From assembly GCF_002941025.1 (NCBI RefSeq), contig NZ_PTJS01000001.1, forward strand, positions 5,585,472-5,649,471: a stretch of DNA of 64,000 nt, given 5' to 3'. Shown here piece after piece: positions 6,084-64,000 of the stretch (positions are counted from its first letter, which is position 1; each line of letters starts with the position of its first letter). This stretch comes from Streptomyces sp. QL37 (lineage in GTDB: Bacteria; Actinomycetota; Actinomycetes; Streptomycetales; Streptomycetaceae). A model generated the notes under the pieces. It worked only from the letters and a program-made list of their open reading frames with translations. It was not told the origin of the DNA and did no database searches. A program made the position numbers and the translations under genes.

Positions 6084-6845
6084 CTACAGCACCTTCGACA
6101 GGAAGGACTTCGTCCGGTCGTGCTGCGGGTTCGTCAGCACGTCGCGCGGGTGGCCGGACTCGACCACGACGCCGTCGTCCATGAAGACCAGCGCGTCGCC
6201 GACCTCGCGGGCGAATCCCATCTCGTGGGTGACGACGATCATCGTCATGCCGTCCTCGGCCAGGCCGCGCATGACGTCGAGCACATCGCCGACCAGCTCG
6301 GGGTCGAGCGCCGACGTCGGCTCGTCGAAGAGCATCAGCTTCGGTTCCATGGCCAGGGCGCGGGCGATGGCCACCCGCTGCTGCTGTCCGCCGGAGAGCT
6401 GGGACGGGTAGTTCTTCGCCTTGTCGGACAGCCCGACCCGGTCCAGCAGCTGTTCCGCGCGCGCCCGGGCCACGGCCTTGGCCTCGCCCTTGACCTGGAT
6501 CGGCGCCTCCATGACGTTCTCGACCGCCGTCATGTGCGGGAACAGGTTGAAGCGCTGGAACACCATGCCGATGTCCCGGCGCTTCAGGGCGACCTCACTG
6601 TCCTTGAGCTCGTAGAGCTTGTCGCCCTTCTGCCGGTAGCCGACCAGGTCGCCGTCGACGTACAGCCGCCCGGCGTTGATCTGCTCCAGATGGTTGATGC
6701 ACCGCAGGAAGGTCGACTTTCCGGAGCCGGACGGGCCGATCAGGCAGAAGACCTCACGCGGGGCGACCTCCAGGTCGATGCCCTTGAGGATGTGTGCGGG
6801 GCCGAAGGACTTGTGTACGCCCTCGGCCTTCACCATGGCGGTCAT
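6084..6845 (-). CDS. Amino acid ABC transporter ATP-binding protein (GlnQ/PAAT type)
   Basis: 253 residues. Walker [11 protein letters not shown]-loop FNLFPH, ABC signature LSGGQQQR, Walker [15 protein letters not shown] and the switch His in [12 protein letters not shown] are all present and intact. It closely matches polar amino-acid uptake ATPases, which couple ATP hydrolysis to import. The ATG at 6845 overlaps the permease stop as ATGA, so translation is coupled. It is the last gene of a binding protein - permease - ATPase operon. Confidence 0.95.
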
Positions 6846-7783
6846 GCGGCACCTCCCTTCGGGCGTCCGAGCGACAGCATGTTCGCCCTGATCTTCTGGA
6901 ACGGGGTGTCCGGCAGGGTGCGGCTGGAGCCGCGGGCGTAGTACCGCTCCAGGTAGTACTGGCCGATGCTGAGCATCGAGGTGAGGATCATGTACCAGGC
7001 CGCGGCCAGGAACAGCATCTCCACGGTGGCCCCGGAGGTCTGCGAGACGTTCTGGGTCGAACGCAGCAGTTCGGTGTACTGGACGGCGACCGCCAGGGAC
7101 GAGGTCTTCAGCATGTTGATGACCTCGTTGCCCGTGGGCGGGACGATGACGCGCATCGCCTGAGGTACGACGATCCGGCGCAGCGTCTTGCCGTGGCTCA
7201 TGCCCAGGGCGTGCGCCGCCTCCGTCTGTCCCTCGTCGACCGACTGGAGGCCGGCCCGGCAGATCTCCGCCATGTACGCGGCCTCGTTGAGCCCGAGGCC
7301 GAGCAGCGCGCAGAGGAACGGCGTCATGAAGGACGACCACTCGTCCTTGTAGATCGGCCCGAGGTTGATGTACTCGAAGACGATGCCGAGGTTGAACCAG
7401 ACCAGCAGCTGTACGTAGACCGGGGTCCCGCGGAAGAACCAGATGTAGCCCCAGGCTATGGACGTCGTGACCGGGTTCTTCGAGAGCCGCATCACGGCGA
7501 GCACGATGCCCAGCACCACACCGATGATCATCGAGAGGACCGTGATGATGACGGTGTTCTTGACCCCTTCGAGGATCTGGTCGTCGAAGAAGTAGTCCGG
7601 GATCGCGTTCCAGTTGATGTCGCCCTGGGCGAACGCGTAGACGAGCGAGGCCAGCAGGCCGAGCGCGACGACCGCGGAGACGTACCGGCCGTAGTGACGA
7701 ACCGGGATGGCCTTGATCGCCTCCGGCCCCGCCGACGGGGTGGGCGGGGTGGCCGCCGGGTCCGTCTTCTTGATGTCAGTCAC
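6842..7783 (-). CDS. Amino acid ABC transporter permease (His/Glu/Gln/Arg/opine type)
   Basis: 313 residues with an Ala/Pro-rich cytoplasmic N-terminus, a first membrane segment near residues 35-50, and a five-helix core. The EAA loop that contacts the ATPase reads [22 protein letters not shown]. The start is GTG at 7783 with AAAGG upstream. A single permease gene implies a homodimer, or a partner encoded elsewhere. It lies between the solute-binding protein gene (30 bases upstream) and the ATPase gene (overlap of 4 bases). Confidence 0.93.
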
Positions 7784-38513: not shown

Positions 38514-38541
38514 GACATCACCTCCGGTGACAGGGGTGAGA

Positions 38542-38553
38542 CCGATTAATCGG
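38542..38553. promoter_or_regulatory. Perfect palindrome upstream of the NlpC/P60 gene
   Basis: CCGATTAATCGG, a 12-bp perfect palindrome with an unusually AT-rich centre, lies within the 152-base gap between two minus-strand genes. It could be an operator or part of the promoter. I looked for a cyclic-di-AMP riboswitch here and did not see its conserved blocks. Confidence 0.4.
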
Positions 38554-38665
38554 ACTACCCCACAAGTGCTCGGATCTCGTCCATCCGGTCACTCGGCCCC
38601 GGGTGATGCAAGGACCGCAGGGCGTGCCGCCCGGGGGACACCCCGAACGGTGGACGACTGAGAAG

Positions 38666-54729: not shown

Positions 54730-56394
54730 TCAGCGCGCGGACGCCGGCTTCAGCGGATCCGGCAGCGTGGGCAGGTCCAGTCCGTACGGGTCCCTCTCGA
54801 TCACGTAGGTGCAACTCGTGTACGAGTAGCCCGGCGTGACGCTGGATCCGGAGGCGTAACTGTCGGCGGCCGCCGTCGCCCCCGAGCCGTGCTTGTACAG
54901 GAAGTGGTAGTCGCCCGCCGGGAGCCGCAGCCGCGTCTTCGGGTACGACGTGCCGCTCGCCCCGCAGGCCCCCGCGGCGCCGGTGGCCTCGCTGCTGAAC
55001 CGCTCGCAGCTGCCGCAGGCCTTCAGCTTCACCGTGCCGGTGACCGGGCCCGTGTAGAGCACCTCGACGTCGTTGGGGGCGCCGTTGCTGATGACGAGTT
55101 CCATGCGGACGCCACCCGGCTTGCCGCTCCCGGGCAGTCTTCCGCCGGCCGAGGGCCGGACCTCGGCTATCTCGGCCGCCGTGGCGATGTCCCGGGCGTG
55201 CCGCCCGCGTCCGTCCTCCTCGTAGGTGTCCGCGAAGTCCGTCAGCGTCTGCCGGGCCTCGGCGAACCGCTTGTCCTTGAACTCGTCCACGCCGCAGGCG
55301 TACACCCCGTCCCGTACGCCCGCCTCGGCCTGCCGCCCCAGAGAGGGCACGGAGGTCTCGGGGAGCTCCGCGACCACGGTGCTCGTCCGCCGCAGCCGAT
55401 CGGTCACAGCGCAGGGCTCGGCGCCCTTCAAGCCGGAGAGCTGCTGTCGTATCGTCCGGCTGACGGCCGGGCCCACCTGTCCGGCCTGCGAGGACTCGGG
55501 GAACGTGCGCAGCAGTGTGCCCAGCTCCTTGCTGCCGGAATCGGGCCCCGTACCCGCCAGGCGGGAGACGCCGCAGCCGTACAGCGACTCCGCGAGCGGG
55601 GTGTCGGGCCAGCCGGCGAGACCGCCGAGCAGCTTCCGGTCCACCGTGCCGGGGAGTGTGCGCAGATAGGTCAGCGGCTCGACCGCCTCGCAGTGCTTCT
55701 TCGCGCGGTACGGCGTGGCGACGGCCTCGTAGTAGCTCTTCAGACGCCCGGGTACGAGGGCGGCGGCGCGCGATCCGGGGTGGTCCTCGCCCAGTTCCCG
55801 GTAGAGCGTGAGCGCGTAGCGGTAGTCGGGCCCGGAGAGGAGGAACGAGCTCTTCGCCGCCTCCGCGACGAGATCGTCCCCCTCCTCCAGACGGTCGAGG
55901 AGCGCCTGCTCCACGGCCTCGTCCCGCGCGGAGCCGTAGGCCACCGTCCCGGTGAGCGGCACGGCCAGCAGGAGCAGCCCGAGCACCACTGCCAGGACGG
56001 GCCGGGGCCACCGGCCGAAGTCCGCGCGCAGGGCGAGGCGGGCCGCGTCGGCTCCGGCGAGGACGAGCAGCACGAGATAGGCGGCGACGAGGGCGGCGGG
56101 CACCCCGTCCGGGTCCGCGGGCAGCGCGACGAGCAGGAGGACGCCCGTCGCGGCCCAGCTCACCGCCGCCCGGCCCCAGCGGCGCAGCAGGACGTGGCCG
56201 AGTCCCAGGCCGGAGAGGCTGAGCAGTCCGGCGGCGGCGGCCCGCAGTGTGGCCCCCGGGGGCGGCGGGCCGGCTGCCGGAGGCCGGGCGGGAGGCGGAG
56301 GAGGACCGCCGGCCCCCCACGTCTGCTCCGGTCCCGGCTCCGGCCCGGCCCCGGGTCTCGGCTCGGGCATGCCCGACTGATCACGTGACTCCAT
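54730..56394 (-). CDS. Membrane protein with solute-exposed helical and C-terminal domains, function unknown
   Basis: 554 residues. A Pro/Gly-rich cytoplasmic start (about 1-50) is followed by about four membrane segments (55-160). A long helical part then resembles tetratricopeptide-type repeats, with YALTLYRELGEDHPGS and FAEARQTLTDFADTYEEDGRG, interspersed with single Cys residues. The last 120 residues form a beta-rich domain with paired Cys (KACGSCERF, GACGASGTSY, SYTSCTYVI). I do not recognise a named family. It converges on ku and is divergent from the riboswitch-controlled glyA. Confidence 0.75.
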   Translation of the reverse strand: MESRDQSGMPEPRPGAGPEPGPEQTWGAGGPPPPPARPPAAGPPPPGATLRAAAAGLLSLSGLGLGHVLLRRWGRAAVSWAATGVLLLVALPADPDGVPAALVAAYLVLLVLAGADAARLALRADFGRWPRPVLAVVLGLLLLAVPLTGTVAYGSARDEAVEQALLDRLEEGDDLVAEAAKSSFLLSGPDYRYALTLYRELGEDHPGSRAAALVPGRLKSYYEAVATPYRAKKHCEAVEPLTYLRTLPGTVDRKLLGGLAGWPDTPLAESLYGCGVSRLAGTGPDSGSKELGTLLRTFPESSQAGQVGPAVSRTIRQQLSGLKGAEPCAVTDRLRRTSTVVAELPETSVPSLGRQAEAGVRDGVYACGVDEFKDKRFAEARQTLTDFADTYEEDGRGRHARDIATAAEIAEVRPSAGGRLPGSGKPGGVRMELVISNGAPNDVEVLYTGPVTGTVKLKACGSCERFSSEATGAAGACGASGTSYPKTRLRLPAGDYHFLYKHGSGATAAADSYASGSSVTPGYSYTSCTYVIERDPYGLDLPTLPDPLKPASAR

Positions 56395-61952: not shown

Positions 61953-61977
61953 GCCCCCGCGCCAATGCCGTGGGGGC
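61953..61977 (+). terminator. Hairpin just downstream of the unknown-function gene
   Basis: GCCCCC pairs with GGGGGC around a 13-base loop, 30 bases past the stop. It may end the mRNA or be the first hairpin of the RNA array. Confidence 0.45.
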
Positions 61978-61993
61978 TGCGCACCCTGCACGA

Positions 61994-62048
61994 GGCGGAA
62001 TGAGGTCCGCCCCGTGTGATGAGCGCAAGCTGAAACTGAACGTTCAGC
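61994..62048 (+). other. Two small hairpins leading into the tRNA-like array
   Basis: GGCGGA/TCCGCC (61994-62011, 6-base loop) and GCTGAA/TTCAGC (62029-62048, 8-base loop) are consecutive perfect 6-bp stems. The second ends exactly where the outer helix of the first tRNA-like element begins. Confidence 0.5.
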
Positions 62049-62143
62049 CTGAAGACGCGGTAACGGTGGAGGTTCGAGTCCTCCCCCCGGCACCACTTGC
62101 CGGGGTGGCCCAACATGGCAGAGGCAGCCGCGATCAATCTCAG
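62049..62143 (+). ncRNA. Circularly permuted tRNA-like RNA 1
   Basis: Order along the DNA: anticodon-type 3' strand CGCGGT (62056-62061), short variable loop, T-arm GGAGG-TTCGAGT-CCTCC (62068-62084, canonical TTCRA loop), acceptor 3' strand CCCCGGC (62085-62091), the 7-base linker ACCACTT that begins with an encoded ACCA, acceptor 5' strand GCCGGGG (62099-62105, perfect 7-bp complement), TG at positions 8-9, a 3-bp D-arm GCC/GGC with GG in the loop (62108-62125), then the matching anticodon-type 5' strand GCCGCG (62127-62132). An outer CTGA/TCAG helix may close it. The folded core is 77 bases, the size of a tRNA. Whether it is charged, spliced or a tRNA mimic is unknown. Confidence 0.75.
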
Positions 62144-62195
62144 ACTCTCGCTCCAGCTTCAGTATCGCCGCCGATTGCCAGATCGACCGAGTACG

Positions 62196-62290
62196 GACGA
62201 ACACCGTTGAATGCTGGTTCGAATCCGGCCTGCGCCTCTACGCGGCGCGGTAGTTCAAAGGCAGAACGCGACGGTATGACGACTGATCCG
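62196..62290 (+). ncRNA. Circularly permuted tRNA-like RNA 2
   Basis: Same plan as element 1 with unrelated helix sequences: anticodon-type strand ACCGT (62203-62207), 5-base variable loop, T-arm GCTGG-TTCGAAT-CCGGC (62213-62229), acceptor 3' strand CTGCGCC (62230-62236), the 7-base linker TCTACGC, acceptor 5' strand GGCGCGG (62244-62250; seven pairs including one G-U), TA, D-arm GTTC-AAAGGCA-GAAC (62253-62267), three bases, then ACGGT (62271-62275), a perfect complement of ACCGT. The core is 73 bases. GACGAA just upstream (62196-62201) resembles the Ro-binding motif of bacterial Y RNAs as I recall it. No CCA is encoded. Confidence 0.75.
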
Positions 62291-62301
62291 CACTCTTAAA
62301 C

Positions 62302-62332
62302 GGCGCTGGCAAGCGCAATTGGGTGGCAACCC
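62302..62332 (+). other. Two hairpins with GGCA loops after the tRNA-like elements
   Basis: GCGCT-GGCA-AGCGC and GGGT-GGCA-ACCC lie close together, each a perfect short stem capped by the same tetranucleotide. They may belong to the same transcript as the tRNA-like RNAs. Confidence 0.45.
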
Positions 62333-62334
62333 CA

Positions 62335-62368
62335 GGGGCCCGGGAGCTGGATACGACTCCCGGGCTCC
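62335..62368 (+). terminator. Terminator-like hairpin ending the RNA array
   Basis: A 12-bp stem (core CCCGGGAG with CTCCCGGG, extended by further pairs including one G-U) and a 10-base loop. It is the strongest hairpin in the region and lies after all tRNA-like parts. Confidence 0.6.
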
Positions 62369-62583
62369 GCCACGCCCGGGCCGGTCCGGTTGCGGGGGTC
62401 GGTAGGAAGCCACGGACAGGAAGCTGACTCATATGTCCGGTATGCGTGTCCGTATCTGCCCACCCACCGGGGCGCAGAGCTAGGGGGCGACCGCGACCGG
62501 CGCACGGCGGCGGTGCACGCGCTGGTCCCCGGTCCCGTTTCCCCTGGCCCGGTTGTGGCACGCGCGCCGGTTCCTCGACGAGG

Positions 62584-62997
62584 TCAGATCTTGATGGCCG
62601 TGATTCGGTTTCCGCACAGTGCGGTGAGGTCTTCCGGGTCGGAGGTGAGCACGGTGACCTGCCCGGGTGAGGCGAGGGCGGTCGCGCCGAGTATGGCGTC
62701 GATGGCGTACTTGTGGCCGGCGAGGCCCGCGTCGGCGAGCAGGGCGGAGGCGTGGCGTGCGATCTCCTCGGTCACCGGCTCGACGACGAGTCGGGAGAGG
62801 GTCCACTCCAGGGCGGGACGGTTGACGCGAGGGTGGGTCACTTCCACGAGGATGGCCGCGGATGTGATCACGCGCAGATCGTCGGCCCGGGCGAGTGCGA
62901 GCCAGGCGGTGACGCTGCGATCGCGGAGCACTGCCTTGGCCAGCCCTTCGCTGTCGAGAACGAGCGTGCCGCCCGGGGCGGCTGAGGGGCGCGTCAT
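62584..62997 (-). CDS. PIN domain ribonuclease toxin (VapC-type)
   Basis: 137 residues with the four acidic PIN positions: Asp in LVLDSEGLAKAV, Glu in SAAILVEVTHP, Asp in KYAIDAILGATAL and Asp in LTSDPEDL. PIN toxins cut RNA, often tRNA or rRNA, when freed from their antitoxin. The ATG overlaps the antitoxin stop as ATGA, the usual antitoxin-first order. It lies about 215 bases from the tRNA-like array, facing it. Confidence 0.9.
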   Translation of the reverse strand: MTRPSAAPGGTLVLDSEGLAKAVLRDRSVTAWLALARADDLRVITSAAILVEVTHPRVNRPALEWTLSRLVVEPVTEEIARHASALLADAGLAGHKYAIDAILGATALASPGQVTVLTSDPEDLTALCGNRITAIKI

Positions 62998-63260
62998 GCC
63001 GCGTCGGACCCGTTCTGGGCCCGCTGCCGCCCGCGTGCCTCCTGGAGCTGCTCGCGGAGCGCCTGGATCTCGCCCTCGGAGATGGGGCCGTGCCCGGCCT
63101 CGCCGACCTTGATGAGCTCGTTGAGGTTGTCGCGCTCGATCTGCCGGGCGACGGCAGCCGCCACGTACGCGGACAGGCCGGAGGGGCCGCTCCGGGCCTT
63201 GGCGGCTTCGGCGATGTCGCGCGGCATGGTGATGGAGTACTTACCGGTAGGCTCGCTCAT
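62994..63260 (-). CDS. Antitoxin of the PIN toxin (ribbon-helix-helix type)
   Basis: 88 residues. The N-terminal part, KYSITMPRDIAEAAKARSGPSGLSAYVAAAVARQIERD, fits a ribbon-helix-helix DNA-binding domain; the C-terminal half is helical and charged and would bind the toxin. TAGGAT lies seven bases before the ATG and there is no ribosome site, suggesting a leaderless mRNA and autoregulation at the promoter. Confidence 0.82.
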   Translation of the reverse strand: MSEPTGKYSITMPRDIAEAAKARSGPSGLSAYVAAAVARQIERDNLNELIKVGEAGHGPISEGEIQALREQLQEARGRQRAQNGSDAA

Positions 63261-63446: not shown

Positions 63447-63752
63447 TCACAAATTGGCGGAACTGCGGTGTACTTGGCGGGCTGCCTCGCGGATGGCCTC
63501 GGCGTAGGGGGAGTCGAAGGCGCGTGTCTCCGGAGACAGGTCGCCGAACGGCACGAGCGCCGCGTGGGAGTCGTCGACCGACTGCATCCAGGCGGACCAG
63601 GCGTTGTGAACGTCCTCGTCGGTGACCTGCTCCCCCTTGGCTTCCAGAAGTACGGCGTAGATGCGGAACAAGGCAGCGGCGTCCGCAGGAGGTGCCGCGT
63701 CAGGAGGCAGGCAGGCGCGGATCAGGTCGGCGAGGGGATCGAGGTAGGTCAT
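63447..63752 (-). CDS. Small protein of unknown function (I believe DUF7701-like)
   Basis: 101 residues, MTYLDPLADLIRACLPPDAAPP, with ALFRIYAVLLEAKGEQVTDEDVHNAWSAWM, then HAALVPFGDLSPETRAFDSPYAEAIREAARQVH. It is helical and acidic, recurrent in Streptomyces with Asp/Glu at fixed places. The start overlaps the upstream membrane protein gene stop (ATG/TGA share two bases), so the pair is coupled. No function is known. Confidence 0.75.
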   Translation of the reverse strand: MTYLDPLADLIRACLPPDAAPPADAAALFRIYAVLLEAKGEQVTDEDVHNAWSAWMQSVDDSHAALVPFGDLSPETRAFDSPYAEAIREAARQVHRSSANL

Positions 63753-64000
63753 ACGGTCAGTGTGCCCGCGAACAGCAGCAGGTGTGCCATGACGAACACC
63801 AGCGGTACGACGCGCTCGGAGGCCCCCAACTCCGCGTAACGCTTGCGCCATACGATGATCGGATCGCTTGTCAGGGCCTCCCATTCGTCGGAGAAGATCT
63901 TGACCTCAAGACGCTCCTCGATCTTGCTTATGCCCTTGAACTTCGCAGTGTTGAGGTCTCGGTAGCTGCGGAGCTGAAGCCACCAGGTGGCCGACAGGGT
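63749..64000 (-). CDS. C-terminus of a RipA-like octameric membrane protein (partial)
   Basis: The gene enters from the right window edge; 83 residues are visible. They read LSATWWLQLRSYRDLNTAKFKGI, EERLEVKIFSDEWEAL, WRKRYAELGASERVVPLVFV and a final membrane segment VFVMAHLLLFAGTLTV. This matches, in my recollection, the end of RipA-family octameric membrane proteins found in many bacteria and sometimes in accessory operons. It is translationally coupled to the small downstream gene. Confidence 0.7.
   Translation of the reverse strand, partial: TLSATWWLQLRSYRDLNTAKFKGISKIEERLEVKIFSDEWEALTSDPIIVWRKRYAELGASERVVPLVFVMAHLLLFAGTLTV

Follow-up and report, generated by a model that had tools for sequence, protein, structure and literature searches.

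In the permuted tRNA genes known from some algae and archaea, the 3' half of the tRNA comes first and is followed by a linker and then the 5' half. A similar order is seen in two-piece tmRNA, where a linker separates the acceptor 3' strand, which comes first, from its 5' partner, the acceptor being of the alanine type with a G-U third pair. Bacterial Y RNAs of the YrlA type (RF02553; structure 6CU1), whose protein partner is Ro60/Rsr, also carry a circularly permuted tRNA-like module, attached on its anticodon side. The match between Y RNA and tRNA has been described as a circular permutation in the ARTEMIS paper (PMC11472068). For the tRNA-like domain of YrlA, competitive inhibition of an anticodon nuclease has been suggested, and in Deinococcus structured RNA is degraded with the help of the Y RNA, by which Rsr is tethered to PNPase (PMC7790460). 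Two kinds of large, structured phage RNAs, GOLLD and ROOL, often lie near tRNA islands; GOLLD is often longer than 800 nt, and no protein partner is reported for ROOL in the same source (PMC12286853).

This study focused on a 64-kb stretch of Streptomyces DNA (hereafter the window, meaning the whole stretch analysed), in which a first-pass annotation had described two tandem, independent, permuted tRNA-like RNAs. Both elements are present, with compensated helices, but they are not independent: comparison of loci shows them to be arms of a single predicted structured RNA of about 380 nt, which contains two circularly permuted tRNA-like modules. Like YrlA, this RNA has a permuted module attached on the anticodon side, but it carries two modules instead of one, is about 380 nt long, and has DUF7873 in place of Ro60; two long-range helices (P3 and P4) and a 3' hairpin, whose loop is YGGATAYG, are not part of the YrlA model. 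With permuted tRNA genes it shares the order of 3' half, linker and 5' half, but there is no anticodon loop to restore, the module sits inside a larger RNA, and one copy is dispensable. The order of the acceptor strands also resembles that of two-piece tmRNA, a candidate that was rejected because both modules have C-G as their third acceptor pair, there are two modules, and no tmRNA was called. The Rfam models of GOLLD and ROOL gave no match in the window and 11 viral loci, and, unlike ROOL, the RNA has a constant protein-gene neighbour. It appears, from its sequence and predicted fold, to be an undescribed relative of the bacterial Y RNAs in which Ro60 has been swapped for another partner. 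What is new is the combination, the tRNA-like module itself being already known.

Layout of the RNA and its permuted modules

All features lie on the forward strand. The conserved neighbour of the RNA is the DUF7873 gene (PF25283; 61192..61923; 243 aa; Pfam E 3.7e-122), and the whole structured RNA was placed at 61994..62373 from a conserved block in 81 aligned loci and a consensus fold, its ends being estimated from conservation. In the block, with motifs assigned by eye, CTGAA-type repeats are followed by module 1, TCGCTCYAG, ATCGACYG, module 2, TTAAACG and finally the 3' hairpin. At its 5' end, a hairpin with the loop ATGAG/TTGAG (61994..62011) was predicted by single-sequence folding and is absent from the 13-sequence consensus fold; hairpins that look similar by eye occur in the phage loci.

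Module 1 (62056..62132) was found by direct reading, by a module scan and with the YrlA model. It consists of a T-stem, GGAGG/CCTCC (62068-62084), an acceptor in which the 3' strand CCCCGGC (62085-62091) is followed by the 7-nt linker ACCACTT (62092-62098) and the 5' strand GCCGGGG (62099-62105), a D-arm (62108-62125), and an anticodon-type stem, CGCGG/CCGCG (62056-62060/62128-62132). Module 2 (62203..62275), which was found in the same ways and also by covariation, has the T-stem GCTGG/CCGGC (62213-62229), the acceptor CTGCGCC/GGCGCGG (62230-62236 and 62244-62250) around a linker of 7 nt (62237-62243), the D-arm GTTC/GAAC (62253-62267), and the anticodon-type stem ACCGTTG/CGACGGT (62203-62209/62269-62275). 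Both share the 7-bp acceptor and the features of a tRNA elbow, with the T-loop TTCRA and GG in the D-loop, and in both the core sequence occupies the position of the anticodon loop. Direct reading bears out the T-arm-first order and the 7 of 7 acceptor pairs that the first-pass annotation had given for each element. Its judgement that chance is unlikely also holds: a scan of both strands of the window (T-loop TTCRA, T-stem 5/5, linker 3-15) found two places with 7/7 acceptor pairs, and no further permuted module, whereas 100 first-order Markov resamples gave 0.03 such places on average and never more than 1. The linker of exactly 7 bases is correct for both modules of the window but is no rule, its length varying from 4 to 47 nt across 66 two-module loci and reaching 49 nt in one further locus (L099) and near 200 nt in another (L086, an insertion at about 7041-7215 inside the module-2 linker), so that the acceptor strands tolerate a large excursion.

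Outside the modules, helix P4 (62176..62181 with 62306..62311) was predicted by the consensus fold and by pairing counts, and the long-range helix P3 (62189..62197 with 62287-62295) closes module 2. The 3' strand of P3 is directly followed by the conserved motif TTAAACG (62296-62302), the two together spanning 62287..62302. The 3'-terminal hairpin (62335..62369), with its conserved loop YGGATAYG (CTGGATACGA in the window), was recognised by conservation, by eye, and in both the consensus and the single-sequence folds. A possible crossing pairing was also seen by eye, between GAGC in the 5' part and GCTC after module 1, with the variants GAGT/ACTC in L099, GAGG/CCTC in L108 and GACC/GGTC in L086.

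ARAGORN called neither a tRNA nor a tmRNA at either module, its sole call in the window being an ordinary tRNA-Leu at 56267. Two reading frames overlap the RNA and are probably not genes: one of 109 aa at 61970-62299 of the window, and ORF 145 annotated in phage Mimi (L102:6145-6354), which overlaps the 3' part. Elsewhere in the window, an NLPC-P60 RNA (38520-38617, reverse strand; RF03033, 86.7 bits) was a routine match. The earlier lead to YrlA proved sound, this being the best Rfam family for both modules at a relaxed threshold (module 1, 27.7 bits at 62045-62150, E 0.00098; module 2, 27.6 bits at 62190-62297, E 0.001). In phage Mimi, module 2 matched at 32.9 bits (E 2e-05) and module 1 at only 18.6 bits (E 0.27). 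Neither window module reaches the Rfam gathering threshold of 69 bits, a strict one, since the YrlA-like RNA that lies beside the TROVE (Ro60) gene of the same genome (L001:525-626, ending about 60 nt before the TROVE start codon) also misses it, at 63.2 bits.

Comparative support for the structure

The check named in the first-pass annotation, covariation among homologues found downstream of relatives of the 61192-61923 gene, came out in favour of the fold. In an alignment of 22 module-2 units (A3), 86.0% of cells were paired, compared to 61.4% in shuffles, and the covariation score was 0.697 against 0.231, a value reached by none of 500 shuffles; sliding the partners by 1-3 columns lowered it to 0.115-0.221. 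Among the helices that had been listed for this check, the anticodon-type stem was poor, with only 52.7% of its cells paired in this mixed alignment. It is unpaired in both modules of the consensus fold of 13 sequences (A4), and in module 2 of Streptomyces it was barely above shuffles (5.94 against 5.53, maximum 5.82). The T-stem, acceptor and D-arm formed part of the search by which the loci were found and so are not independent evidence, but P3 was not used in this way.

P3 shows changes on both sides in all nine of its pairs, with 90.2% of cells paired (A3). In a separate count using 19 of 23 loci, 6 of them Streptomyces (L062, L098, L106 and L108 were dropped for want of the TTAAACG anchor), there were 18 distinct strand pairs, and the mean run was 7.84 compared to 5.69 when partners were exchanged, the maximum of 500 shuffles being 6.47. 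For P4, a count in 19 chosen loci gave modest support (6.68, compared to 5.85 in shuffles, the maximum of 500 being 6.56). In the A4 consensus fold, 40 of the 81 predicted pairs change on both sides. Both alignments, of 22 and 13 loci, were chosen and are not random samples, and some loci are near-duplicates (L088 of L087, L100 of L085, L104 of L092). The folding energy of the single sequence was unremarkable (z -1.47), and 9 of 100 shuffles folded equally well; support for the predicted structure is comparative, not energetic.

When the strict module scan was applied to 108 loci, 67 had two or more modules and 39 had one, while the two with none (L094 and L095) had RNAs that were recovered by the covariance model alone. 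The scan gave a spurious third module in L007 and L102, and L007 was omitted from the block set and the linker counts. Because its numbering shifts where a locus has a single module, the mean values it gave for module 1 are mixed and were set aside. The modules differ in their constancy. Module 2 lies downstream of DUF7873 in all 81 aligned loci (80 Streptomyces loci and the window). For module 1, 77 of the 81 loci examined could be assigned from the spacing of flanking motifs (four were unassigned, and some sequences were viewed), and in 29 of the 77 it is replaced by a short hairpin. Comparison across loci thus shows module 1 to be dispensable, at least as judged from sequence, with module 2 retained where module 1 has been lost. 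These 29 Streptomyces loci represent a natural experiment on the purpose of a tRNA mimic.

The DUF7873 gene and its linkage to the RNA

The ORF at 61192-61923 matches DUF7873 over its full length (407.1 bits, cut-off 27), and the closest named protein among the matches listed, from Streptomyces silvae, is 98% identical. No match to the family was found in NCBIfam, PADLOC or PDB sequences, and PHROGs searches with 34 members gave only three weak hits, each for a single member. An AlphaFold2 model made from 25 sequences (mean pLDDT 90.8, pTM 0.73) had no convincing match in a comparison with structure libraries, where no known RNA-binding or catalytic fold was recognised; in the viral structure library it was paired with a crAss-like phage protein, A0A7M1RW91 (E 0.021, probability 1.00, TMt 0.57). 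As no known RNA-binding fold was matched, the sole pointer to RNA binding by DUF7873 is its linkage to the RNA. In a protein tree, rooted at the midpoint and with several long branches, the 15 sampled Streptomyces rows fall on one branch (98/87), beside three IMG/VR contigs and within the viral diversity. Among open-licence PMC articles, no paper contained the word DUF7873, and none of the matches listed described the RNA.

DUF7873 occurs frequently in public genomes, with at least 593 pattern matches, at least 566 of them confirmed, and the best 80 loci are all from Streptomyces. In a sample of 150 Streptomyces genomes the gene was present in 70 and absent from 80. A covariance model of the RNA (R1), run on the same sample, matched in all 70 DUF7873-positive genomes, on the same contig and strand and 137-342 nt downstream of the gene, at 48.8-138.3 bits (the window RNA having the top score), one of these matches (G305) spanning model positions 23-133 only. 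In the 80 genomes lacking the gene there was no full-length match above 43.6 bits among the matches listed. Across 296 genomes sampled from the phylum, DUF7873 occurred in six, all Streptomyces; a Nonomuraea record also has it. Beyond these, it was detected in 73 phage records, 20 IMG/VR contigs and four plasmid records. The length of one of these four, 11.85 Mb, makes it more probably a chromosome. DNA searches with the RNA alone returned the same four plasmid records; the phage records that they returned, 7 and 4, all come from phages that carry DUF7873. The gene-RNA pair is carried by phages of Arthrobacter, Gordonia, Rhodococcus and Pseudanabaena, and more weakly recognised in phages of Rhizobium, Klebsiella and Vibrio. 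Altogether 29 viral or plasmid loci (L082-L110) were compared with R1; 13 belong to its training alignment and so match by construction, and ten more scored at least 58 bits. Five others (L107, L109, L108, L097 and L093) matched weakly, at 32-42 bits, scores that tandem tRNA genes can equal; they were counted as members because they are sited beside DUF7873. L101 holds only the end of the DUF7873 gene, at a contig end, and no full RNA. These comparisons show the predicted RNA to be constantly linked to DUF7873 and carried by both Streptomyces and large phages.

In eight named phage loci, the region that follows the DUF7873 gene has hardly any annotated genes or none, and it is this gap that contains the permuted modules; tRNA genes occur in seven of the eight stretches. 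At least two tRNA genes were found in 19 of the 29 viral or plasmid stretches. The tie to phage tRNAs is not general, since nine stretches have no tRNA gene (L082, L083, L084, L089, L091, L093, L096, L106 and L110), and the single ARAGORN call in L086 is a false-looking tRNA-Ser (6788-6877) that overlaps the RNA itself.

The patchy occurrence in 70 of 150 genomes, and carriage by phages and plasmid records, could indicate a defence or mobile cassette, acting in toxin-antitoxin or anti-phage roles in Streptomyces and in counter-defence in phages. The flanks of the Streptomyces loci are unrelated between loci, a similar upstream or downstream flank being found in a median of 1 of 64 other loci (means 2.7 and 5.0), although this comparison was made without a control gene. 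Of the window neighbours, an FGE-sulfatase gene recurs in 7 of 80 loci and a PIN gene in one. The latter, a PIN-domain gene with a small, antitoxin-looking gene upstream (62584-63260, reverse strand), adjoins the RNA; because it is found in only one of the 80 other loci, it is not part of the cassette. Further along, at 63447-63884 (reverse strand), is a gene for a DUF7701 protein (E 8.7e-39). Given the lack of a PADLOC match and of a recognised catalytic fold, the cassette reading is a possible but rather doubtful one, and it is compatible with the RNA and protein forming a ribonucleoprotein (RNP).

The constant position of the RNA, downstream of the gene and on its strand in 70 of 70 genomes, together with a promoter-like conserved stretch seen by eye upstream of the gene, might also suggest that the RNA is part of the DUF7873 mRNA and acts in cis, as a regulator in its 3' region. 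This is unlikely. In two viral loci the arrangement differs, the RNA being upstream of the gene in L094 and on the opposite strand in L095, so that it does not depend on a 3' UTR position, and the flanking genes are not conserved.

Relation to Ro60 and tRNA genes, and a proposed role

The YrlA-like module raises the question of whether this is an ordinary YrlA-type Y RNA acting with a Ro60 protein encoded elsewhere in the genome. The genome of the window does carry a TROVE gene, with its own YrlA-like RNA, 1.1 Mb from the DUF7873 locus. The constant neighbour of the RNA is nevertheless the DUF7873 gene and not Ro60. TROVE was present in 42 of the 70 DUF7873-positive and 39 of the 80 DUF7873-negative genomes, which is no association (Fisher p 0.19), and was found in the record of one viral locus, a Rhizobium phage, among the 25 of the 29 viral or plasmid loci for which it was sought (L095, L100, L101 and L110 were left out). 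That phage, RHph_TM21B (L107/L121), has both systems: its TROVE gene lies about 5 kb downstream of DUF7873 and is preceded by several apparent Y RNA-type hairpins and YrlA-type modules. Among 14 named control genomes, Deinobacterium chartae gave the sole match for DUF7873, and also for TROVE. R1 itself picked up at least 32 module-only matches (model positions about 43-106), scoring up to 55 bits; among the 32 listed, 19 were within 2 kb of a TROVE match and on the same strand, and 13 were not. Evidently the 19 matches near TROVE represent YrlA RNAs that accompany Ro60; they provide a useful positive control. While the permuted module and the Rfam assignment are those expected of YrlA, the window RNA scores far below the TROVE-adjacent RNA of the same genome (27.7 against 63.2 bits), and its second module, P3, P4 and 3' hairpin lie outside the YrlA model. 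The comparison shows the predicted RNA to be independent of Ro60, and an ordinary Ro60-bound Y RNA is a quite improbable explanation.

Less probable again, and very unlikely, is that these are permuted tRNA genes whose transcript is cut and joined into working tRNAs. The order of parts would fit, and among two-module loci the module-1 linker has CCA at positions 2-4, like a tRNA 3' end, in 19 of the 48 from Streptomyces and 7 of the 18 of phage type, but in module 2 the figures are 0 of 48 and 2 of 18, the linker starting instead with TCT in 40 of 48 and 12 of 18. Core sequence, P3 and P4 occupy the anticodon-loop side, module 1 is missing in over a third of the assignable loci (29 of 77), no tRNA was called by ARAGORN, and the archaeal or algal splicing route for permuted tRNAs is not known from bacteria. 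A degenerate tandem tRNA array, with halves of neighbouring tRNAs imitating a permuted module, can be dismissed: such arrays do produce background with R1 (five of six background places checked hold at least two tRNA-Asn genes and the sixth a tRNA-Lys, with matches of about 41-44 bits and tandem tRNA-Asn genes reaching 43.6 bits), but the window RNA scores 138.3 bits, P3 covaries although it is part of no tRNA, which contradicts an array, and the outer tRNA halves that would be required were not found by ARAGORN in the window. One clear case of such mimicry in the covariance search is a row of four tandem tRNA-Asn genes at G395:C1:141200-141900 (L127).

The best explanation overall, and one we consider somewhat better than an even prospect, is that the locus encodes a two-component RNP made up of a tRNA-mimic RNA and DUF7873. 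That the protein and the RNA form an RNP at all is likely, given their linkage, and tRNA mimicry is probably its working principle. DUF7873 would be a dedicated RNA-binding partner that holds the core, made up of P3, P4 and the 3' hairpin, and the modules would present tRNA-like elbows to a tRNA-handling enzyme. By analogy with YrlA, the RNA most probably offers tRNA-like arms on a protein-bound core, whether to recruit such an enzyme or to occupy it. The particle might recruit a tRNA enzyme, much as PNPase is recruited by the Deinococcus Y RNA; a rather more doubtful role is that of a decoy, which would divert tRNA-directed nucleases from the tRNAs of phage and host. That the pair often sits within tRNA arrays of phages is consistent with a function connected to tRNAs. 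More broadly, it is an evenly balanced proposition that this is an undescribed class of RNP, in which a Ro60-independent, two-armed tRNA-mimic RNA and its dedicated protein, DUF7873, used by large phages and often placed within their tRNA arrays, have passed into Streptomyces as a mobile cassette, and capture or misdirect enzymes that process or cleave tRNAs.

If this proves to be true, the link between Ro60 and the permuted tRNA fold of Y RNAs is not obligatory: in phages and bacteria the fold has been reused, doubled and paired with a different protein. In tRNA-rich phage genomes, the gap behind DUF7873, for the most part without annotation, would gain a testable function, and the DUF7873 family its first testable role.
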